64,000 nucleotides of DNA. Origin: Polaromonas sp. Lineage in GTDB: Bacteria > Pseudomonadota > Gammaproteobacteria > Burkholderiales > Burkholderiaceae_C. The DNA lies in assembly GCA_021737975.1 (NCBI GenBank), contig JAIPCZ010000007.1:35010-99009 (forward strand). The letters run 5' to 3'. The position numbers and the translations under genes are program-made. Positions 6,145 to 17,769 of the stretch are shown here, in pieces (position 1 is the first letter of the stretch; every line of letters begins with the position of its first letter). The notes beneath the pieces were generated by a model that had not been told where the DNA came from, made no database searches, and saw only the letters and a program-made list of their open reading frames with translations.

Positions 6145-9100
6145 TTACTCGTAAACAATCTCGGCTGTGCCGGGTGCGGCCTGCGCCCACCAGCTCGCCA
6201 GCGCGGCATTGCTGGGATAAAACCTGGCCTGCTCGCCCAACTGCAATTCCGCCCGGGCGGCGCCCTCTTCACCCTGACAGTTCAAGGCAAGTCGCACGGC
6301 CAGACCGCGCCACAGGTCGCCCTGCTCGGTGACCTCTTTTTGCGCCGGAAAATCACGCAGAAGCCGGGCCATGTCCAGCTTCAAGCCCTGGGGTCCGGTC
6401 GGGGCGGACACGCGCAGGTATTTGCCAAAGCGGCAGCGCGCCTGCTCGAGGTCCCAGATTTGTGTCACCGTCAGTTGCATGCCGCCCGAAAAGCGGTCGG
6501 GCTGCTGCTTGCCCATGACAATGACCAGCTCATCGTCCCTGAGCAGGTCCTTGTGCGCGTTGATCAGCGCCTCATCGGCCCGGGCTTCGATCACGCCCGA
6601 CGTGTCGTCGAGCTTGAACAGCGCCAGTTTGCCGCGCTGGCCGTTGATGACGCGAAAGTCGGTGATGATGCCCGCGAGCAACTGCGGCTCGCGCGTGTCG
6701 ATCAGCTCGGCAATCGGGCGCTTGGCAAAACGCCGTACCTCGGTCACCACCTCATCGAACAAATGTCCGGACAAATAAAAGCCAACTGCAGTTTTTTCGT
6801 AGACCAGGCGTTCCTTCACGCCCCAGGGGGTGGCTTGCACCAGTTCGGGCTCTTGTGTGCTGGAGCCGTGCGCGTCGCCGTCACCCATGTCAAACAGACT
6901 GCACTGGTTGGCATTGGCCAGCGCCGCCGCGCCAAACTCGAACGCCAGATCGACGCTGGCCAGCAGGCTGGCCCGGTTGAGCGCGATGGCATCAAACGCC
7001 CCGGCCTTGATCAGCGCCTCGACCGTGCGTTTGTTGATACGACTGCGGTCGACTCTTGCACAAAAATCAAACAGGCTCCTGAACGGCCCCACCGTGTCGC
7101 CATTCGGACCCACACCCCGGCCTTCGCGGGCCGCCACGATGGCCTCGATGGCTTGCTGGCCGCTGCCCTTGATGGCGCTCAGGCCATAACGGATCAGCTT
7201 GTCCGAAATCGGCTCGAAACGGCTCACGCCACGGTTCACGTTCGGCGGCTCGAACGTCAGCCCCATCTTGAGCGCGTCTTCCAGCAGGACCTTGAGCTTG
7301 TCGGTGTCGTCCATTTCCACCGTCATGTTGGCGCAAAAGAACTCGGCCGTGTAGTGCACCTTGAGCCAGGCGGTGTGGTAGGCCAGCAGTGAATAGGCCG
7401 CGGCGTGCGACTTGTTGAAACCATAGCCGGCAAACTTCTCCATCAGGTCGAAGACTTCGTCGGCCTTGTCCTGGTTGATGTCGTTTTTCAAGGCACCGTC
7501 ACGGAAGATCTGCCGGTGCCGTGCCATCTCGTCGGCGTCTTTCTTGCCCATGGCGCGGCGCAGCATGTCGGCGCCGCCGAGCGAATAACCGCCCAGGATC
7601 TGCGCGGTTTGCATCACCTGCTCCTGGTAGACCATGATGCCGTAGGTCTCCGAGAGCATATTGGCCACCAGTGGATGCGGGTACTCCACCACCTCGCGGC
7701 CATGTTTGCGCGCCACGAAGCTCGGAATCAGGTCCATGGGGCCGGGCCGGTACAGCGCGTTGAGCGCGATCAGGTCTTCCAGGCGCGTGGGTTTGGCGTC
7801 TCGCAGCATGCCCTGCATGCCGCGCGATTCAAACTGGAACACCGCCTCGGTCTTGCCGTCCTGAAACAGCTTGTAGGTGGCCTTGTCATCGAGCGGCAAG
7901 TTCTCGTAGGCAAAGTCTTCCTGGCCCGGATGGCGCTGCCGAATGAATTCGCGCGCGATCTCCAGAATCGTCAGGGTCGCCAGGCCCAAAAAGTCGAACT
8001 TGACCAGCCCCACGGACTCGACGTCGTTCTTGTCGTACTGGCTCACCGCCGAGTCGCTGCCGGGCTGCTGGTACAGCGGGCAAAAGTCGGTGAGTTTGCC
8101 CGGCGCAATCAGAACGCCGCCGGCGTGCATGCCGACATTGCGCGTCATGCCCTCCAGCTTGCGCGCCAGCTCCAGCAGCGTGCGCACGTCTTCTTCCCTG
8201 GCTTCGCGCTCGGCCAGAATCGGCTCGGCCTCCACCGCATAGACCAGCTTGTCGTCCTTCTTGCGATCGGGGGGCGGCAGTTGCAGGGTCACCGCGACGC
8301 CGGGCTTGTTGGGAATCAGCTTGCTGATGCCGTCGCAAAAGGTGTAGCTCATGTCGAGCACCCGGCCCACGTCCCGGATGGCCGCGCGCGCTGCCATGGT
8401 GCCGAAGGTGGCTATCTGGCTGACCGCGTCCTTGCCGTATTTTTCCTTCACGTAGTCAATGACCCGGTCGCGGTTGCCCTGGCAGAAGTCGATGTCGAAG
8501 TCGGGCATGGAAACCCGCTCGGGGTTCAAAAAACGCTCGAACAACAGGTTGTACTGCAGCGGGTCGAGGTCGGTGATCTTGAGGGCGTAGGCCACCAGCG
8601 AACCGGCGCCGGAGCCGCGCCCCGGGCCGACCGGGCAGCCGTTGTTTTTAGCCCAGTTGATAAAGTCACCGACAATCAAAAAGTAGCCCGGAAAGCCCAT
8701 TTTTAGGATGGTGTTGAGTTCAAACTCGAGCCGCTCCACATAACGCGGCATCTCCTTTTCCCGCTGCGCGACATCGGGGTACAGATGCGCCATGCGCTCC
8801 TTGAGCCCTTCGTGCGAGGCATAACGAAAATACTCGTCCGCCCCCATCACCACGCCATTGACCGGTGGAATCGGAAAATCAGGCAATTGCGGCTTGCCCA
8901 GCACCAGACTCAGGTTGCAGCGCCGGGCGATCTCGGCACTGTTCGCAAGCGCCGAGGGCACATCGGCAAACAGGGCCTGCATCTCGGCGCCGGTCTTGAA
9001 ATACTGGTCACGCGTGAAACGCCGCACCCGGCGCGGATTGGCGAGCATTTCACCCTCGGCAATACACACCCTTGCCTCGTGCGCCTCGAAGTCTGCCGGG

Positions 9101-9708
9101 GCCTGAAATTGAACCGGGTGTGTTGCCACCACCGGCAGGCCCGAGCGCAACGCCAATTGCACCGCCGACCTCACCTGCAGTTCGTCTTCCGGGCGACCTG
9201 CGCGCTGCAGTTCCAGGTAAAAGCGGTGCGTGAAAACTCCCGCCAACTGCAGCGCGGCGTCCAGGGCACGGGTTTCGTCGCCTTGCAACAGTGCCTGACC
9301 CACCGGGCCTGCCTGTGCGCCTGACAGGCAGATGAGCCCGCCATTGAGCTCCTTTAGCCAGGCCAGGCCCACGGTGGCCTGCACCTTGCCGCCGTTTTGC
9401 GTCCAGGCGCGCGCCAGCAGTTCGGACAGATTCAGGTAGCCGGCGTGGCTTTGCACCAGCAACAGCACGCGCGAGAGTTGCCCGAGTTCCTTGCCCAGCC
9501 CCTCCAGCCAAACCTCGGCGCCGATGATGGGCTTGACCCCGCGCTTGCGTGCTTCCTTGTAGAACTTGATCGCCCCGAACAGATTGCTCAGGTCGGTGAT
9601 GGCCAGCGCCGGTTGACCGTCCGCGGCAGCGGCCTTGACCACCTCGTCGATGCGGGTCGTGCCATCGATGACCGAAAATTCAGTGTGCAGGCGTAAGTGA
9701 ACAAACAT
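6145..9708 (-). CDS. dnaE: DNA polymerase III alpha subunit
   Basis: MFVHLRLHTEFSVIDG PHP domain, PDFDIDFCQGNRDRVIDYV. Start refined from 9741 to ATG at 9708. Confidence 0.97.
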   Translation of the reverse strand: MFVHLRLHTEFSVIDGTTRIDEVVKAAAADGQPALAITDLSNLFGAIKFYKEARKRGVKPIIGAEVWLEGLGKELGQLSRVLLLVQSHAGYLNLSELLARAWTQNGGKVQATVGLAWLKELNGGLICLSGAQAGPVGQALLQGDETRALDAALQLAGVFTHRFYLELQRAGRPEDELQVRSAVQLALRSGLPVVATHPVQFQAPADFEAHEARVCIAEGEMLANPRRVRRFTRDQYFKTGAEMQALFADVPSALANSAEIARRCNLSLVLGKPQLPDFPIPPVNGVVMGADEYFRYASHEGLKERMAHLYPDVAQREKEMPRYVERLEFELNTILKMGFPGYFLIVGDFINWAKNNGCPVGPGRGSGAGSLVAYALKITDLDPLQYNLLFERFLNPERVSMPDFDIDFCQGNRDRVIDYVKEKYGKDAVSQIATFGTMAARAAIRDVGRVLDMSYTFCDGISKLIPNKPGVAVTLQLPPPDRKKDDKLVYAVEAEPILAEREAREEDVRTLLELARKLEGMTRNVGMHAGGVLIAPGKLTDFCPLYQQPGSDSAVSQYDKNDVESVGLVKFDFLGLATLTILEIAREFIRQRHPGQEDFAYENLPLDDKATYKLFQDGKTEAVFQFESRGMQGMLRDAKPTRLEDLIALNALYRPGPMDLIPSFVARKHGREVVEYPHPLVANMLSETYGIMVYQEQVMQTAQILGGYSLGGADMLRRAMGKKDADEMARHRQIFRDGALKNDINQDKADEVFDLMEKFAGYGFNKSHAAAYSLLAYHTAWLKVHYTAEFFCANMTVEMDDTDKLKVLLEDALKMGLTFEPPNVNRGVSRFEPISDKLIRYGLSAIKGSGQQAIEAIVAAREGRGVGPNGDTVGPFRSLFDFCARVDRSRINKRTVEALIKAGAFDAIALNRASLLASVDLAFEFGAAALANANQCSLFDMGDGDAHGSSTQEPELVQATPWGVKERLVYEKTAVGFYLSGHLFDEVVTEVRRFAKRPIAELIDTREPQLLAGIITDFRVINGQRGKLALFKLDDTSGVIEARADEALINAHKDLLRDDELVIVMGKQQPDRFSGGMQLTVTQIWDLEQARCRFGKYLRVSAPTGPQGLKLDMARLLRDFPAQKEVTEQGDLWRGLAVRLALNCQGEEGAARAELQLGEQARFYPSNAALASWWAQAAPGTAEIVYE

Positions 9709-9803
9709 GGGACTTCTAGTATGATGAATCAGGAAAATCAAACGGCAAGGATGGCGTTTGCTGCCAATACTTGGATTGTAAGAACACCCATAAGGCGACT
9801 AAC

Positions 9804-10463
9804 GTGAAGATTCTCGTGGTTGATGATCATGCGCTCGTGCGGGAAGGGCTTTGCCAGGTGCTTCAGGGCCTGGACCCCCTGGAAACCACGCACGTGCTGC
9901 AGGCCGCCACGTGCACCCGGGCGCTGGAGCTGGCCCATTTCAATCCAGACCTGGATCTTGTGTTGTTAGACTACCTGCTACCTGACATGAATGGCCTGGC
10001 CGGCCTGGAAATCTTTGGCCAAAGACACCCTGAGCTACCCGTCGTTATTTTGTCAGGCTCGGCCAACCCGACGGTGGTTCAGCAAGCCATGGAACTCGGA
10101 GCGGCTGGTTTTGTCACCAAGTCGAGCTTGAGCGACACCCTGCTCAACACACTGCGGCGGATATTGGCCGGGGAACTTTTTCAGCCCGCCGACTTCAGCC
10201 CCCTGAGCCAACCGGTCGCTGGGTTGCAGAGCAAATTAACCACACCGCCCGTGCTCAGCCCGCGGCAGCAAGATGTGCTTCTTCTTCTCATCAATGGTCT
10301 GACCAACCGGCAGATTTGCGAGAGACTGTCGCTGGGTTCGGAAACCGTGAAATTCCATGTCAGTAATATTTTGCGCATCTTTGGTGCCAGCACCCGAACC
10401 CAGGCCGCGCTGGAGGCCAAGCGCTGGGGTTATGACCCGGTCTCGGTACCGGAGTCACGCTGA
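9804..10463 (+). CDS. Two-component response regulator, LuxR/NarL-type (REC + HTH)
   Basis: KILVVDDHALVREGL, LVLLDYLLPDMNG, C-terminal LSPRQQDVLLLLINGLTNRQICERLSLGSETVKFHVSNIL. Probable GTG start at 9804; ATG at 9771 is the alternative. Confidence 0.93.
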   Translation: MKILVVDDHALVREGLCQVLQGLDPLETTHVLQAATCTRALELAHFNPDLDLVLLDYLLPDMNGLAGLEIFGQRHPELPVVILSGSANPTVVQQAMELGAAGFVTKSSLSDTLLNTLRRILAGELFQPADFSPLSQPVAGLQSKLTTPPVLSPRQQDVLLLLINGLTNRQICERLSLGSETVKFHVSNILRIFGASTRTQAALEAKRWGYDPVSVPESR

Positions 10464-12391
10464 TCCATCAACAAATGACGCAGCAAGTTGCGCAATTTGG
10501 CCGGGCGCACAGGTTTGTGCAATAGCGTCAATTGCGCCAGCTGGGCCGCCTGGATAAGGGCCGGATCGGTGTCCCCACTGATGAGACAGGCCGGCACCGG
10601 ATAGGTCAGTTGCTGGCGCAACTGTGCCACCACGCGTATCCCGTTCAGAGGCTCATTCAGGCGGTAGTCACTGATGATCAGGCAGGGCAACACACCTTGT
10701 CGAATCAAAATTTGAGCGCTATGCAGGTCGCTCGCCTCGGCCACCACCATGCCCCAGCTTTGCAACAAACCCACCAGTGCCTGGCGCACCATGTCATCGT
10801 CCTCAACCACCAGCACCGTCCCTTGCGGCAAGTCGGATGTTTGGGGCGTGTCAAGGACCGGCGCCAAAGCCTGGTCCCGATTGGGACCCACCCTGGGCAC
10901 CTTGACGCAAAAACGCGTTCCCACACCCAAGCGCGACGAAAGCTCCAGGGGATGCGTCAACAGCCGGCAGCTCCGCTGCACAATGCTCAGACCCAGACCC
11001 ATGCCCAGGCTGCGTTGCCTTGCTGGATTGTCGACCTGGTAAAACTCTTTGAAAACATCATTCTGATGTTCGGGTGCAATGCCCAGGCCACTGTCCCACA
11101 CCTCGATGCTGGCCTGCGGCTTGTTGCCAGGGCAGCGGCACGCGACCAGCACCCCGCCCGTTTCGGTATAACGCAAGGCATTGCCCACCAGGTTGAGCAA
11201 AATGCGATAGAGCAGGGCCGGGTCAGTTCTAACCCAAACCGAGCAAGGCCGAATCCGCAACTTCAGGCCCCTGTCCTGGGCCAACGGCGCCAGATCACGC
11301 ATGAGACGTTCGAACAACTCCATCAGGGGAAATTTTTCAAACCGGATCTGGACGGCTTTGGCCTCCAGTCGGGAAATATCGAGCAAGCCGTCGAGCAGAT
11401 TTTGCATCGCGTTCACCGAGGCCTGCAGGTTGCCGACCAGTTGACGGGTCTGCCCGTCGTGCGAAAGCTGGGCCAGGCGCGCGATAAACATGCCCAGGGC
11501 ATGCACCGGCTGGCGCAAATCATGGCTGGCGGCGGCCAAAAACCGCGACTTGGCCTGGGTTGCCAGTTCAGCCTCCTCCTTTTTCTCACGCAAGGCCTGA
11601 GTCACCGTGGCCACCTGGTCCTCGAGGTCCTGGCGCACGCCAGCCAGACGACCTGCCATCTGCATCAGGTTCCTCTGCAAGTCGATGAGCGGATCCCGTG
11701 GCGGCGTCAGCGCCTGCACTTCCGCAGCGGCGGCAAAATCGCCGTGCCCGATGCGCTCCACGAGATGCGACACCCGCATCAGCGGACGAATCACACCGGC
11801 ACTGAGTCTGACTGCCAACACCAAGCCAAACAGCAGCCCGAGGGCGCTGATCAGACCGCCAAGCAAAAGAATTTCCCTTTGTTGCGCTGCCACGGACTCG
11901 CGTGAGAACTGCACCACCACCTGACCCAGGGGCGTGGTTTGCGCCGCGCCCGTTTGGTTCGAGTCCTCGTACAAATCGTCGTGCTTGATACCGCTTGCAA
12001 AAACCGGTTGTGTCAGCATATCGAACGAGCCCAGCGCATCGAAGCTGTGTGCCTCTTCGCTGGAAGGCGGTGGTGAAGAGGCCTCTCCCAGAGCCTTGCC
12101 AGCGCTCGCCAGGACTTGGCCCTGCGTGTCAAAAATTTCAACCCAGCGCAAGTCGGGCTCCCTTAAGGCGCCGCGCGCCAGCGCTTGCAACTGCTGCTTG
12201 TTGGCGGCGAACAAGCCGAATTCACTGGCCAGAGCCAACTGGCGTGCCACCGAACGGTTGCGCAGCTGGTAGGCCTGGGTGATGTCGTCAAAACGGGTGA
12301 TCAAAAAGACCAAAGACAGCAACACGCTCAGCAGGGACACGGGCAGCAGGGCTGCCACCAGCATCCGGACCCGAATGTCCGGTGTTTTCAT
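10430..12391 (-). CDS. Hybrid sensor histidine kinase (TM-periplasmic-TM, HAMP, HisKA, HATPase, C-terminal REC)
   Basis: AASHDLRQPVHALGMF H-box; GMGLGLSIVQRSC; REC VLVVEDDDMVRQAL ... IISDYRLN. Confidence 0.94.
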   Translation of the reverse strand: MKTPDIRVRMLVAALLPVSLLSVLLSLVFLITRFDDITQAYQLRNRSVARQLALASEFGLFAANKQQLQALARGALREPDLRWVEIFDTQGQVLASAGKALGEASSPPPSSEEAHSFDALGSFDMLTQPVFASGIKHDDLYEDSNQTGAAQTTPLGQVVVQFSRESVAAQQREILLLGGLISALGLLFGLVLAVRLSAGVIRPLMRVSHLVERIGHGDFAAAAEVQALTPPRDPLIDLQRNLMQMAGRLAGVRQDLEDQVATVTQALREKKEEAELATQAKSRFLAAASHDLRQPVHALGMFIARLAQLSHDGQTRQLVGNLQASVNAMQNLLDGLLDISRLEAKAVQIRFEKFPLMELFERLMRDLAPLAQDRGLKLRIRPCSVWVRTDPALLYRILLNLVGNALRYTETGGVLVACRCPGNKPQASIEVWDSGLGIAPEHQNDVFKEFYQVDNPARQRSLGMGLGLSIVQRSCRLLTHPLELSSRLGVGTRFCVKVPRVGPNRDQALAPVLDTPQTSDLPQGTVLVVEDDDMVRQALVGLLQSWGMVVAEASDLHSAQILIRQGVLPCLIISDYRLNEPLNGIRVVAQLRQQLTYPVPACLISGDTDPALIQAAQLAQLTLLHKPVRPAKLRNLLRHLLMDQRDSGTETGS

Positions 12392-13332
12392 GGCCGCTGC
12401 TCCATGCGCCTTAACGCAAGGGTCAGGGCCTTCACATCGAATGACAAGCCCAGCACCCTGGCCACCTGCTCGTTGACGCTGATTTCAAAATCAAGGGGCT
12501 CCAGAGCCAGCTCAGGCAAGACCCGATTGGCCAGCACACCAATCGCCCACCGTCCCGCCTGTGAGCCCGCCTGGGTGGGTGTGCTGTACAAGGCCAGCAT
12601 GGCACCCGCGCGCGCATAGGCGGGGGAAAAGGCGACCAGCGGGACCTTGTGACGGATCGTGGTCATCAGAATATTCTGAATGCTGTTGCTGTTGAAAACC
12701 AGCGGGTCAGCGAGCGCCAGCATCACATCGCTGTTCTCCAGGACAGACTGCAACGCCGGAAATAATGAGCTGCTGTCGTCCACACTGGCTTCCTGGAAGA
12801 CCAGTCCGTTGGCGCTGGCCAGCGGTCGCAAAGCCAGTGCCCGAGTCAAAGAATCAGGCCCCCACAGAATACCCACGCGTTTTGCCTGCGGCAGCGCCAG
12901 ACGAATCAGCGCCAACTGGCGTTGCAACGGCTGATCCAGGTAAAGCGCGTTGAACTGGGGAGACACCTTGCGCCCTGACTCGCGCAGGACGCGCTCAAAG
13001 CTGCTGCGTGGCACCAGCGCGCTCAACACCGGGGCCATCAGCTTAGCCCGAGCCAGGCTCGCTGCGGCCTCGGTTCCCAGCGCGACAAACGCCTGGGGAT
13101 TGCGCGCCGTCACCTGCGCATTGGCAGCGGTCCATTCGTTCACGTTCATCTGCTGGACGTCAGCACGCGGCACACCGGCAAGCTCGACGCTGGTGATGAA
13201 GGCGTTCGCGGCAGCCGCATAGGCCGCGGTGCTGTCACTGCTGACAATCACCACGCGCAACTCGGCATGGGCCCCGCTCGCGATCAGCCACAGCGCCAAC
13301 ATGGCCAGCATTGAGCGCGACAAGGCCAGCAT
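12388..13332 (-). CDS. Periplasmic ABC-type substrate-binding protein, uncharacterised (PF04392-like)
   Basis: Signal peptide ending GAHA; LPQAKRVGILWGPDS; 4-bp overlap with the downstream kinase. Confidence 0.8.
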   Translation of the reverse strand: MLALSRSMLAMLALWLIASGAHAELRVVIVSSDSTAAYAAAANAFITSVELAGVPRADVQQMNVNEWTAANAQVTARNPQAFVALGTEAAASLARAKLMAPVLSALVPRSSFERVLRESGRKVSPQFNALYLDQPLQRQLALIRLALPQAKRVGILWGPDSLTRALALRPLASANGLVFQEASVDDSSSLFPALQSVLENSDVMLALADPLVFNSNSIQNILMTTIRHKVPLVAFSPAYARAGAMLALYSTPTQAGSQAGRWAIGVLANRVLPELALEPLDFEISVNEQVARVLGLSFDVKALTLALRRMEQRP

Positions 13333-13343
13333 GTCGCCAGGCC

Positions 13344-15332
13344 CTAATTGTCGAGCCGCAATGTCAGGAAAGCACGCCTGCGAAACTCGAATTCCGGGGC
13401 AAAGTCGAGGTAAGGCTCACCCAGGTTTTGCACCACCAGCGCGAATTCACCGCGCCGGACACCCCAGCGCAAAGCCTTGGCCAGGCGCACATCCGTGCGT
13501 GTGAACGCCCGGTTGGTGTCGCTTGAGCCCTGAAGAGAAGTCGTTCCGCCGTCCTGATGAAGCACGGACAGTTCCAGGTCAGCCGGCAAGCTCTGTGTAA
13601 AAAACAAGGTGCTCGCCAACTTGGGAACAACAAAGTCCAGGCTCGAATCAGACCGCGGATTTGAAACGGAAATGCGCGTTCGGGCCTGGTTAAAGCCCAC
13701 CTGCGCACCCTGCCAGGGCTTCCAGTTGAGTTGGTATTCAAGCCCGCGAATTGAAAAGCCTTCGCTGTTGTAAAAATCCGCGGGGGTCGACGGCAACAGG
13801 GACGATCCTGGCGGTAACGGGTAGCGCAGTCGTTCGACAAAGCCACTCACCTTTTCGTGGAACAGCCGCACATCCAGCGTGGCACCCCATTGCGGCACAC
13901 TCGCGAGGTAACCCAACTCGCGTGCCACCAGGCTCTCGGGCTGGAGGTTGCCACGCGACAGAGAAGTCACCTGAAGCGGCAAATTGCCGTAGCTGTAGCG
14001 GACATTGCTGCTGGTCTCGAACACGCTGGGAGGGCGAAACGCCCGGCTGACGCCGGCACGCACGGTGTGCCCTGGCGACACATGCCAGTTGAGCATCAGG
14101 CGAGGCGCCAGGCTGAAACCAAACCGGCTGTGCTGCTCACCCATGAAGCCCGCGTTGAGCAGCCAGTCGGGTGACAGGCGCCACTCGGCGTTGGCAAACA
14201 AGCGCTTGAAGTCGGTCACCAGCGCCTCGCTGCTGTTGTACAAGGGCTCGGATGTCACCTGCTCGCGCCGCCATTCACCACCCCAGACCACCCGCAGCCC
14301 GTCACCTTTGCGAAACGTGTGCTGCAGGGTCACTGAATCGTTGACGGAATTGCCCCTTGCAGACACATCGATACTGTCATTGATACCAAGTGGAAGCAGC
14401 GAGTAGGCAAACGAATCGCGGTAATCTTCCTGCGTGCGAGACAAGAGGAGCGCCAGGTCCTCGTTCGGCCCCAGCGTGCGATGCCAGTCGATCTGCATAA
14501 ACCCCGATTCATAAAAGCCGTCACGCGGTGGTGAACCCGCCTGCCCCGCAAATCCCCGCCCGGCATCGATCCCGAGCATACCAGCACGAAATTGCACCTC
14601 GTCGTCCAGAGACGCTCGCCAGTCCGAGCGAAAATTGACGCGGCGCACCTGGTTGTGCCCGTTGGATCCGGCCAGGCCATCGTCAGCGCGGCTGTCCACG
14701 CTGAGGCGAAAACCGGCCTGATCGGTGCGCCAGCCGAGTGCCGCCTGGGCATCGCGAATTCCGTTTTGGCCGGTCGAAATTTTCGCCTGCACACCTTGGG
14801 TGACCTCCGTGTGCTGCGTCACGATATTGACCACACCCAGTATGGCGCGGGCCCCATAGGCCGCCGAATTGGAACCACGCAGCACCTCGATGCGTTCAAT
14901 ATCTTCCAGCGCCACCGACATCAGCCCGGGCCCGACACTGCCAAAGAGGTAAGTCGAGTAAGCCGAACGTCCGTCCACCAGCACCTGCATACGCCCAGAA
15001 TAGCTGTTGAAACCGCCGTGATAAGTGGCTTGGGGCAAGTCGCCCTCAAAGGCGTTGCTGGTCTGGAAACCCGGCACCAGTCGCAACAAATCGGCCACAT
15101 CGCGCGCACCCGAGCGCCGGATCATGTCGCGGTCCAGAATGGTGACGGCGCCGGGTGTTTCGTCAAGGCGCTGCGGCAGCCTGGAGACCGACAGCACGAT
15201 CGGCATCTCGTCAAAAAAATCATTTTCTGACATGGCATGGCCGGACTGTGCCCATGCCGCTGGTGCGCAAAGCAAGCAAAAGGCAATCAGCGCAGCCGCC
15301 CTGACTGCGCCGCTAGTTGATGTTGTTGTCAT
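13344..15332 (-). CDS. TonB-dependent outer-membrane receptor
   Basis: Plug domain DETPGAVTILDRDMIRRSGARDVADLLRLVPGFQ, IERIEVLRGSNSAAYGARAILGVVNIVT; C-terminal aromatic-rich strand ending LTLRLDN. Start refined to ATG 15332. Confidence 0.93.
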   Translation of the reverse strand: MTTTSTSGAVRAAALIAFCLLCAPAAWAQSGHAMSENDFFDEMPIVLSVSRLPQRLDETPGAVTILDRDMIRRSGARDVADLLRLVPGFQTSNAFEGDLPQATYHGGFNSYSGRMQVLVDGRSAYSTYLFGSVGPGLMSVALEDIERIEVLRGSNSAAYGARAILGVVNIVTQHTEVTQGVQAKISTGQNGIRDAQAALGWRTDQAGFRLSVDSRADDGLAGSNGHNQVRRVNFRSDWRASLDDEVQFRAGMLGIDAGRGFAGQAGSPPRDGFYESGFMQIDWHRTLGPNEDLALLLSRTQEDYRDSFAYSLLPLGINDSIDVSARGNSVNDSVTLQHTFRKGDGLRVVWGGEWRREQVTSEPLYNSSEALVTDFKRLFANAEWRLSPDWLLNAGFMGEQHSRFGFSLAPRLMLNWHVSPGHTVRAGVSRAFRPPSVFETSSNVRYSYGNLPLQVTSLSRGNLQPESLVARELGYLASVPQWGATLDVRLFHEKVSGFVERLRYPLPPGSSLLPSTPADFYNSEGFSIRGLEYQLNWKPWQGAQVGFNQARTRISVSNPRSDSSLDFVVPKLASTLFFTQSLPADLELSVLHQDGGTTSLQGSSDTNRAFTRTDVRLAKALRWGVRRGEFALVVQNLGEPYLDFAPEFEFRRRAFLTLRLDN

Positions 15333-15360: not shown

Positions 15361-16047
15361 CTAGTCGACAGCCGCAGGTGCCACCACCCGCCCGGCCTCG
15401 ATGGTGATGCTGCGCAGGCATCGCTCCGCCATGGCACGGTCATGGGTGACCAGCAGCAGCGTCGTGCCCAGTTCCCGGTTCAGGTCGAACATCAGGCGCA
15501 TCACCGTCTCGCCGGTGGCGAAGTCAAGGCTCCCGGTGGGCTCGTCGGCCAGCAAGACCGCCGGCTGCACCACAAACGCACGCGCCAGTGCCACCCGCTG
15601 TTGTTCGCCGCCCGAGAGCACCTTGGGGTAAGCCCGCAGGCGCTGGGCCAGGCCCACGCGGTCGAGCATCTCGGTGGCCAGCTTGCGCGCCTGGCGCCGG
15701 CCCGCGAGTTCCAGCGGCAGCATCACGTTTTCAAGCGCCGTCAAGTTGCCCAGCAACTGAAAGCTCTGAAAGACAAAACCCAGCTTCTCAGCGCGCAGGG
15801 CGGCGCGCTCGTCCTCACTCAGGGCAAACAGGTCCTGCCCGGCCAGCCGCACCGTGCCCCGGCTGGGCGTGTCCAGGCCGGCAATGATCGACAACAGGGT
15901 GCTCTTGCCCGAGCCCGAAGCACCGACAATAGCCACGGTCTCACGGGATCGCAGCGAAAAATCAATGTCCTGCAAAATCTCGAGTGTCCCGGTCGCATCG
16001 GTCACCGACTTGAAAACGTGCTCTACCGAGATAATGACATCAGACAT
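15361..16047 (-). CDS. ABC transporter ATP-binding protein (LolD/YbbA type)
   Basis: Walker A GASGSGKST, signature LSGGEQQRVALARAF, Walker B VLLADEPTGSLD. Start refined to ATG 16045-16047 (MSDVIISVEHVFK). Confidence 0.94.
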   Translation of the reverse strand: MSDVIISVEHVFKSVTDATGTLEILQDIDFSLRSRETVAIVGASGSGKSTLLSIIAGLDTPSRGTVRLAGQDLFALSEDERAALRAEKLGFVFQSFQLLGNLTALENVMLPLELAGRRQARKLATEMLDRVGLAQRLRAYPKVLSGGEQQRVALARAFVVQPAVLLADEPTGSLDFATGETVMRLMFDLNRELGTTLLLVTHDRAMAERCLRSITIEAGRVVAPAAVD

Positions 16048-16720
16048 GGATATTTCTTTGCAACAAATGAATGTGAACCGACGCCACTGTATCGCGTTGG
16101 CGGCTGTCCTTGCCAGCAGCGGGATTTGGCGCGGCGTGGCGGCCGCCACAGCACAGCCCGCGCGCCCTGCCCTGCTGGTGCTGGGCGACTCCCTGAGCGC
16201 CGAGTATGGCCTCAGGCGCGGCACGGGCTGGGTGGCACTGCTGGAGCAAAAGCTGCGGGCTGAAAATATCCTTGCCGAGGTGGTCAACGCCAGCATCAGC
16301 GGCGACACCAGTTCAGGCGGCCGCGCCCGCCTGGCGGCGCTGCTGGCGCAACACCGACCCGCGCTGGTGGTGATCGAACTGGGCGGCAACGACGCGCTGC
16401 GCGGCCTGCCGCTCGACCTCACCCGGGACAACCTGCTGGTCATGACGCGCCTGGCACAGCTAGGCGGCGCCAAGGTGGTGTTGCTGGGCATGCAGGTCCC
16501 GCCCAACTACGGGCGAGATTACGCCCAGCGTTTCTCCCGCATGTACGTTGACGTGGCCAAGGTCACCCGGGCGGCCCTGGTGCCCTTCTTTCTCAAGGGG
16601 ATTGCCGATGCCCCCGACAGCATGGCCTGGTTTCAGCCTGACCGCATTCACCCCAGGGAAGAAGCCCATCCGCGCATGCTGGCCAATGTCTGGCCAGCCA
16701 TCAAGAAAGGGCTGCAATGA
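16046..16720 (+). CDS. tesA: Arylesterase / lysophospholipase-like SGNH hydrolase (TesA-like)
   Basis: LVLGDSLSAEYGL, VIELGGNDALRG, DRIHP catalytic block; divergent from a YbbA-type ATPase. Alternative start at 16067. Confidence 0.9.
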   Translation: MDISLQQMNVNRRHCIALAAVLASSGIWRGVAAATAQPARPALLVLGDSLSAEYGLRRGTGWVALLEQKLRAENILAEVVNASISGDTSSGGRARLAALLAQHRPALVVIELGGNDALRGLPLDLTRDNLLVMTRLAQLGGAKVVLLGMQVPPNYGRDYAQRFSRMYVDVAKVTRAALVPFFLKGIADAPDSMAWFQPDRIHPREEAHPRMLANVWPAIKKGLQ

Positions 16721-17769
16721 GCCTGAGTCCCCTCAGCGCGACGGAAGTCATGGCACGGCTGGCAGACTTCGATGCCATCATTGATGCCCGCAGCGAGGAC
16801 GAATACCAGGCCGACCATCTGCCAGGTGCCGTCAACTGGCCCACGCTGAACAATGCCGAGCGTATCGAGATCGGGACCCTTTACAAGCAGGTCAATCCCT
16901 TTGAAGCCAGAAAGCGGGGCGCGGCAATCGCTGCGCGCAACATTGCCGCGCACATTGAGCGGCACGTCATCGACAAGCCCCGCGAATGGCGGCCGTTGGC
17001 CTACTGCTGGCGCGGCGGGCAACGCAGCGGTTCGCTGGCGCTGATCCTGAGCCAGATCGGCTTTCGTGTGACGCTGGTGGAGGGCGGCTACAAGGCCTTT
17101 CGGGCGGCGCTGGTGCAGGACATCGTGGCGCGTGTCCCGAGCCTGTCGTTCCGGGTCGTTTGCGGCCCGACCGGCAGCGGCAAGACACGCCTGCTGCAGG
17201 CCCTGGCCGCGCAAGGGGCCCAGGTGCTGGACCTGGAGGCGGTGGCCAACCACCGCAGTTCAGTGCTCGGTGCGATGCCCGGGCTGGCGCAACCCACCCA
17301 AAAACATTTTGAAACCCTGCTCTGGGACAGATTGCGCCACTTTGATCCGGCCGTGCCCGTCTTCGTTGAAAGCGAAAGCAAGAAAGTCGGCAACTTGTCT
17401 GTGCCGGCCGCGATGATGGAGGCGATGCGCGCCAGCCCCTGCCTGAACCTGCAATTGTCTGATGAGGAGCGGGTGGCGCTGTTGCTGGAAGACTACGACC
17501 ACCTGACGCGCAACGTCGCCTACTTTTGTGAACGGCTGGAAAAGCTCACCGAGCTCAAGGGGCATGAGGTCGTGAAACGCTGGCAAAGCATGGCGCGGGA
17601 AGGTGACTTTGCCACGGTGGTGATGGAGCTGCTGAGCCAGCATTACGACCCGGCCTATCTGCAATCGATGCAGCGAAATTTTGGGCAATTTGCACAGGCC
17701 GATCAGCTGACCCCGACCGACCGGTCAGCCAAGGCGATGGCCGCCCTGGCAAGCCAGTTGCTGGCTTGA
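16717..17769 (+). CDS. mnmH: tRNA 2-selenouridine synthase (rhodanese + P-loop)
   Basis: FDAIIDARSEDEYQADHLPGAVN, YCWRGGQRSGSLA, GPTGSGKTRLLQALA. Confidence 0.94.
   Translation: MSLSPLSATEVMARLADFDAIIDARSEDEYQADHLPGAVNWPTLNNAERIEIGTLYKQVNPFEARKRGAAIAARNIAAHIERHVIDKPREWRPLAYCWRGGQRSGSLALILSQIGFRVTLVEGGYKAFRAALVQDIVARVPSLSFRVVCGPTGSGKTRLLQALAAQGAQVLDLEAVANHRSSVLGAMPGLAQPTQKHFETLLWDRLRHFDPAVPVFVESESKKVGNLSVPAAMMEAMRASPCLNLQLSDEERVALLLEDYDHLTRNVAYFCERLEKLTELKGHEVVKRWQSMAREGDFATVVMELLSQHYDPAYLQSMQRNFGQFAQADQLTPTDRSAKAMAALASQLLA

Follow-up and report, generated by a model that had tools for sequence, protein, structure and literature searches.

Bacterial binding proteins that lack a permease can serve as signalling partners of membrane-bound enzymes. 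In LuxP-LuxQ, TorT-TorS and NspS-MbaA, the partner of a permease-less binding protein is a kinase or cyclase, whose periplasmic domain receives the signal, and the protein YfiR represses the YfiN cyclase. Proteins of the PF04392 family are normally transporter components. The BarA/GacS-type kinases govern lifestyle switches in many bacteria and their trigger is poorly understood, short carboxylates having been proposed as BarA signals. In Pseudomonas, the kinase PA1611 works with RetS and HptB (PMC5812489, PMC4866733, PMC5992135), while its signal is given as unknown in a review (PMC5812489). The PA1612-PA1611 operon is co-transcribed with fabAB, fabA expression is unaffected by deletion of PA1611, and the counterpart of PA1611 in Pseudomonas putida KT2440 is PP_4173 (PMC3462791). 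Among outer-membrane receptors, TOL_0244 shows a sevenfold increase on C28 alkane and is similar to OmpS, which is implicated in alkane detection (PMC6304351).

Here we describe a locus from a 64,000-nucleotide stretch of a Polaromonas sp. genome, referred to as the window, in which a TonB-dependent receptor, a PF04392 binding protein and a sensor kinase are encoded side by side. The sensing module formed by these genes is real, widespread and apparently undescribed, since a search of open-access PMC full text gave no description of a receptor-PF04392-sensor module. The window carries the Burkholderiaceae form of the module, characterized by a NahK-like kinase core and a LuxR-type regulator. 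The original prediction had called the module uncharacterised, which apparently holds for the full gene set, although PA1611, the kinase found with the set in Pseudomonas, has already been studied.

Organization of the locus

In the list of open reading frames, three genes form a tight run on the minus strand, namely the receptor (13344-15332), the binding protein (12388-13332) and the hybrid kinase (10430-12391), with a gap of 11 bp between the first two and an overlap of 4 bp between the last two. The gene of a NarL/LuxR-type regulator (9804-10463) lies on the plus strand and converges on the kinase, the 3' ends of the two overlapping tail to tail by 34 bp. Gene coordinates and Pfam domains thus bear out the four genes and the domain types proposed from the sequence beforehand, and the predicted lack of a permease gene beside the binding protein is likewise found at the window locus.

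The module is flanked in the window by dnaE and by an ABC ATPase gene. The latter (15361-16047, minus strand; Pfam PF00005, 1.8e-34) has the same orientation as the receptor gene and precedes it with a spacing of 28 bp, which amends the original prediction, and the order ATPase then receptor also occurs in two other loci (L039, L040). It is divergent from the gene of a TesA-like esterase (15361-16720 for the pair), and because of this position the ATPase looks to be of the YbbA/LolD type. Since no permease adjoins it, the ATPase was rejected as the transporter of the binding protein, and it is probably a neighbour and not part of the mechanism. Promoter and terminator scans remained at chance level. 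Beyond the module, the window encodes MnmH (tRNA 2-selenouridine synthase; 16717-17769, 493.5 bits), near which no selenophosphate synthase gene was noticed; a selenoprotein hidden in a reading frame beside MnmH was considered and rejected after the frames were read. The genome of origin is a 2.6-Mb assembly, about 70% complete, with three Plug-domain receptors and with TonB-like proteins encoded elsewhere in it.

The receptor and the binding protein

The receptor has 662 amino acids and contains Plug (9.4e-22) and TonB_dep_Rec barrel (7.2e-24) domains, the only two that Pfam finds in it; an N-terminal STN signalling domain is missing, as had been anticipated. A TonB-box-like segment, PIVLSV, is present at the mature N terminus (15186-15203, minus strand) and may act as the TonB box, with conserved P81 and R88 that are kept in 95% and 98% of 58 module receptors, respectively. 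The nearest NCBIfam model is that of the TOL_0244 family (NF053590), matched with 175.1 bits and hence below its cut-off of 645.

The binding protein (314 amino acids) begins with a signal-peptide-like sequence and matches PF04392 (ABC_sub_bind) with 60.2 bits over a cut-off of 25.9 (2.6e-16), so that it carries the domain of an importer protein, but the permease and ATPase that would adjoin an importer gene do not lie next to it. No ABC ATPase adjoins the binding protein in any of the module loci read. The six weakest PF04392 matches belong to canonical ABC loci, where a sensor is missing and an ABC ATPase gene follows about 1.0-1.2 kb downstream, and on the binding-protein tree the six transporter-linked PF04392 proteins form one fully supported group apart from those of the module. 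The nearest solved structures are 3lkv and 6hni, and the AlphaFold model, built on five sequences, reached a pLDDT of 56, too poor for a pocket or fold search. TrpX is the nearest named match; with 45 bits against a cut-off of 390, TrpX-like ligand binding was rejected.

The kinship of the receptor with TOL_0244 and the presence of fabAB next to the gene set in Pseudomonas and in three further loci (L092, L101, L102) are weak hints of an alkane or fatty-acid ligand, which is not claimed here; the fabAB proximity possibly points to a lipid-related compound. In the three loci just named, a sensor gene is missing, and receptor and binding protein precede a TrmO-like gene and fabA-fabB. A second PF04392 protein of the Polaromonas genome is encoded in L038 (contig C14, region 6720-11700). 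It has a 5TM-LYT/SpoIIE phosphatase on one side and, on the other, an MFS protein that carries a long N-terminal extension. An ABC permease is missing here too, and this locus may possibly be another binding-protein signalling unit.

The kinase and the regulator

The membrane-bound hybrid histidine kinase (653 amino acids) is composed of sCache_4, HisKA, HATPase_c and Response_reg domains and has no Hpt domain. Its periplasmic single Cache domain (sCache_4, residues 31-171; 11879-12301, minus strand; PF09984, 3.3e-13) is of the kind found in BarA/GacS, while the unorthodox HisKA-HATPase-REC-Hpt arrangement of those kinases is missing and the receiver (residues 526-637; 10481-10816, minus strand; PF00072, 1e-13) lies at the C terminus. 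An AlphaFold model of residues 1-255 (pLDDT 75) gave Foldseek matches to the sensor domains of WalK, LapD-type proteins and CitA, with DctB also among the neighbours. The catalytic core is closest to the NahK/ErcS family, which it matches over the whole model with 330.6 bits (NF041832), short of the cut-off of 400; the score against the BarA model (NF008318) is 203.7 bits, with a cut-off of 890 that is not reached.

The regulator, which starts with GTG, consists of a receiver (Response_reg, 1.2e-20) and a GerE domain (1.5e-14), and its best NCBIfam model is ErdR (121 bits, below the curated cut-off). It is presumed to be the output of the window kinase. NarL/LuxR-type regulator genes also lie upstream of the module on the same strand in nine loci (L105 to L130) from several unrelated families, so that the linkage with a regulator recurs outside Burkholderiaceae.

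Conservation and exchange of outputs

The order of all four genes is kept in four Rhodoferax metagenome-assembled genomes (L039-L042), two of which are cut at a contig end within the receptor. Identities with the window proteins are 52-58% for the receptor (long matches), 60-62% for the binding protein, 67-81% for the kinase and 77-87% for the regulator, and the convergent overlap of regulator and kinase is retained (25-34 bp). All four genes are also present in two loci from other Burkholderiaceae genera (L029, L030), in one of which the binding-protein gene is broken by an in-frame TGA (L030, 3647-4584), a sequencing error or a sign of decay. The regulator, which the original prediction had included in the module, thus holds the same convergent position in Rhodoferax and is a lineage-specific partner, though LuxR-type regulators recur nearby elsewhere.

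A search of 370 genomes of Gammaproteobacteria found a relative of the binding protein in 88, and about 100 neighbourhoods were read, 71 of them built on strong binding-protein matches. Of these 71 loci, 57 have a receptor gene directly before that of the binding protein and in the same orientation, 67 have an sCache_4-type sensor directly after it, and in 54 the binding protein is flanked by both. Exceptions are several loci with binding protein and sensor but no adjacent receptor, besides the three sensor-less loci mentioned above. Among 398 genomes of the phylum, strong matches were confined to 14, all of them within Gammaproteobacteria and the window's own included. As the arrangement recurs in dozens of genera, its synteny is far beyond chance. 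The synteny predicted for relatives in Burkholderiales is therefore found in Rhodoferax, and its core extends class-wide; the locus is not a novelty of Burkholderiales but a branch of a class-wide module of the BarA/GacS type.

The output attached to the sensor is exchanged within the module. One sensor family is found fused to a NahK-type kinase, to a BarA-type kinase with Hpt, to a GGDEF domain or to a GGDEF-EAL pair, with receptor and binding protein retained. Five further Burkholderiaceae loci (L031-L035) keep receptor, binding protein and sensor and have a GGDEF domain as the output, while across the class the outputs are BarA-like kinases with or without a detected Hpt, GGDEF and GGDEF-EAL; Hpt is present in many of these module kinases, unlike in that of the window. 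At least three changes between kinase and GGDEF output can be placed on the binding-protein tree. The receptor, the binding protein and the Cache sensor can thus be regarded as an input unit that evolution has plugged into phosphorelay or cyclic-di-GMP outputs. In a first mirror-tree run the binding protein seemed to track the sensor rather than the catalytic core, but once NahK-type cores were left out the core correlated as well; the idea that the binding protein follows the sensor specifically was therefore dropped, and the mirror-tree is used only for the co-inheritance of the unit.

Relation to BarA/GacS kinases and to PA1611

The link to BarA/GacS-type kinases was also evaluated in a sample that is blind to the binding protein, in which an even set of 232 genomes yielded 50 full-length BarA-like kinases. 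For 30 of them, a binding-protein gene in the same orientation lies no more than 1 kb away, in 28 cases directly upstream; the random expectation is about 0.0004 per kinase. About 40% of these kinases have no binding protein, which indicates that this sensor type can work without one. The genes that recur beside the module, as identified from sequence, are cysM (22 loci), rlmD (19), pdxJ (16), rnc (14), era (12) and recO (11); since ten BarA/GacS-type kinases without a binding protein (L270 to L288) also lie beside cysM and/or rlmD, many module kinases are encoded in the gene surroundings that are usual for barA/gacS. By hand count, the curated BarA model is matched best by the module kinase in 37 of 50 genomes with the module, and two kinases that adjoin a binding protein (genomes G342 and G409) exceed the BarA cut-off of 890 bits. 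In G664 and G897, the two Pseudomonadaceae genomes analysed in this way, a stand-alone kinase encoded separately gives the best BarA match, whereas the linked kinase is PA1611.

The gene order in Pseudomonadaceae is receptor, binding protein, kinase, fabA and fabB, and the first three are contiguous in all 30 further loci fetched from this family. In one of the loci (L268), two published primers (PMC3462791) match exactly, namely PA1611-UP, located between the kinase stop codon and fabA, and the primer for fabA. These matches identify the kinase as PA1611, and the gene order then makes PA1612 the binding protein and PA1613 the receptor.

A wider interpretation, put forward tentatively and with rather less than even confidence, is that BarA/GacS-type kinases of Gammaproteobacteria were built around, or have repeatedly acquired, a TonB receptor and a solitary binding protein that supply their signal. 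The input of Gac/Rsm would then be a ligand imported into the periplasm and read through a binding protein, an arrangement that PA1611 would have retained and that stand-alone GacS/BarA kinases of Pseudomonas and enterics would have lost. As two ligand-handling genes precede such kinases in many genera, the question of the signal is reduced to a short list of testable proteins, and the module thus offers testable partners both for PA1611 and for BarA/GacS-type kinases.

A periplasmic signature of linked sensors

A set of 73 linked sensors was aligned with the sensors of 15 stand-alone BarA/GacS kinases. The membrane and HAMP parts are similarly conserved in the two groups, whereas eight periplasmic positions are typical of linked sensors, corresponding to E57, F58, F61, N64, E78, I135, D139 and Y141 of the window kinase. 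Seven of them cluster in two segments, residues 57-64 (E57, F58, F61, N64; 12200-12223, minus strand), which are kept in 57-73 of the 73 linked sensors versus 1-5 of the 15 stand-alone ones, depending on the position, and residues 135-141 (I135, D139, Y141; 11969-11989, minus strand). The mean is 6.7-7.9 of eight signature residues in every linked output class versus 1.7 in stand-alone sensors, and the values for eight control positions are 7.8-8.0 in every sensor group; as the signature positions were picked on this same contrast and the sequences are related, p-values overstate significance and weight is placed on the effect size. In addition, the motif AAEYGVIAGN is kept in PA1611 and missing from a stand-alone Pseudomonadaceae kinase (L274). 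The simplest reading of these sequences would be that the signature reflects a constraint imposed by a periplasmic partner.

Proposed mechanism and alternative explanations

The genetic coupling, the missing permease, the exchange of outputs and the signature are observed features, and we assign a probability of roughly 60% to a relay that would account for them, in which a ligand enters through the receptor and is captured by the binding protein, this protein determines the state of the Cache sensor, and a receiver is the target of the kinase. In particular, the TonB-dependent receptor would carry a specific external ligand across the outer membrane, and the solitary PF04392 protein would capture it in the periplasm without delivering it to an ABC permease. 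The binding protein would instead act on the sCache_4 domain and set its state, probably through docking on the part of the sensor near residues 57-64 and 135-141. The hybrid kinase would then alter its phosphorylation and pass phosphate to its own receiver and to a LuxR-type regulator, either directly or with a separate Hpt protein in between; in the window, this regulator would probably be the product of the convergent gene. The original prediction that the binding protein serves the kinase and not a transporter is thus partly supported, by the class-wide synteny, the lack of an adjoining ABC ATPase in module loci, the swapping of outputs and the periplasmic signature.

An unlikely alternative is that receptor and binding protein are an import pair whose permease is encoded elsewhere, with the kinase regulating the import genes and its Cache domain sensing a small molecule directly. 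Cache domains usually bind small ligands, the Foldseek neighbours include CitA and DctB, and the Cache domain is retained in stand-alone BarA/GacS kinases, which have no binding protein. Yet no module locus has an ABC ATPase adjoining the binding protein, the linked sensors carry periplasmic residues that are rare in stand-alone ones, and receptor and binding protein still accompany the sensor where its output is GGDEF or GGDEF-EAL, neither of which is a direct regulator of transcription.

Somewhat less probable still is an inhibitory arrangement similar to that of YfiR, in which the empty binding protein would hold the sensor off until the state of the receptor or of the envelope, and not ligand delivery, frees it. 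The repression of YfiN by YfiR offers a precedent, and receptors of the TOL_0244 type pair, in the same gene order, with YfiR/HmsC and a CHASE8 sensor, but YfiR and PF04392 are different families and the binding protein retains its PF04392 match. Loci of this second kind were read directly (L162-L181; for example L164, 659-5496, and L162, 2467-8220), in which a TOL_0244-type receptor is followed by YfiR/HmsC and then by a CHASE8 sensor with a hybrid-kinase or GGDEF-EAL output, and they represent a parallel receptor-adaptor-sensor design.

That the binding protein simply feeds an ABC importer encoded elsewhere, next to the kinase by historical accident in a gene-dense locus, would agree with the usual role of PF04392 proteins and with TrpX as the nearest named match (45 bits, cut-off 390), but is very improbable given that the adjacency recurs in dozens of genera and in different genomic neighbourhoods, that the tree places module proteins apart from transporter-linked ones, and that 30 of 50 BarA-like kinases sampled independently of the binding protein adjoin one.

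Comparison with known systems

The relay proposed above shares elements with several described systems. FecA-type TonB transducers have an STN domain and an adjacent sigma/anti-sigma pair, whereas the window receptor is STN-less and is accompanied by a kinase and a regulator. The TOL_0244/OmpS receptors provide its nearest NCBIfam model, but with 175 bits against a cut-off of 645 it falls outside that family, and most TOL_0244-type loci read encode YfiR in place of the PF04392 protein. YfiBNR and the receptor-YfiR-CHASE8 loci resemble the module in joining a periplasmic adaptor to a sensor with GGDEF or kinase output, in some cases beside a TonB receptor; they differ in that YfiR/HmsC (PF13689) and CHASE8 take the places of PF04392 and sCache_4, and the window locus does not belong among them.

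On the side of the kinases, NahK/ErcS is the best family for the core and receiver of the window kinase, just as ErdR is the best model for its regulator, but the window kinase receives its input through a membrane-anchored sCache_4 domain and has no NosP gene next to it. BarA/GacS kinases of the Gac/Rsm system have a homologous sCache_4 sensor, from which the window kinase departs by its lack of Hpt, its score of 203.7 against 890 bits and its location outside the barA neighbourhood. The PA1613-PA1612-PA1611 set shares with the window the order of receptor, binding protein and a BarA-type sCache_4 sensor with HisKA, HATPase and REC but no Hpt, so that the window locus has the composition of a PA1611-group operon, namely a REC hybrid kinase without Hpt together with a PF04392-type protein and a TonB receptor. 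The kinase is 29.5% identical over its length; the core of PA1611 is closer to BarA than to NahK, no LuxR regulator is seen adjacent to it, and the Pseudomonas set precedes fabAB, whereas that of the window lies beside dnaE.

Finally, LuxP-LuxQ, TorT-TorS and NspS-MbaA are encoded in operons that are not known to include an outer-membrane receptor and rely on unrelated sensor domains and binding-protein families. The pairing of a binding protein with a sensor would be common to these systems and to the window locus, which adds to it an outer-membrane receptor.
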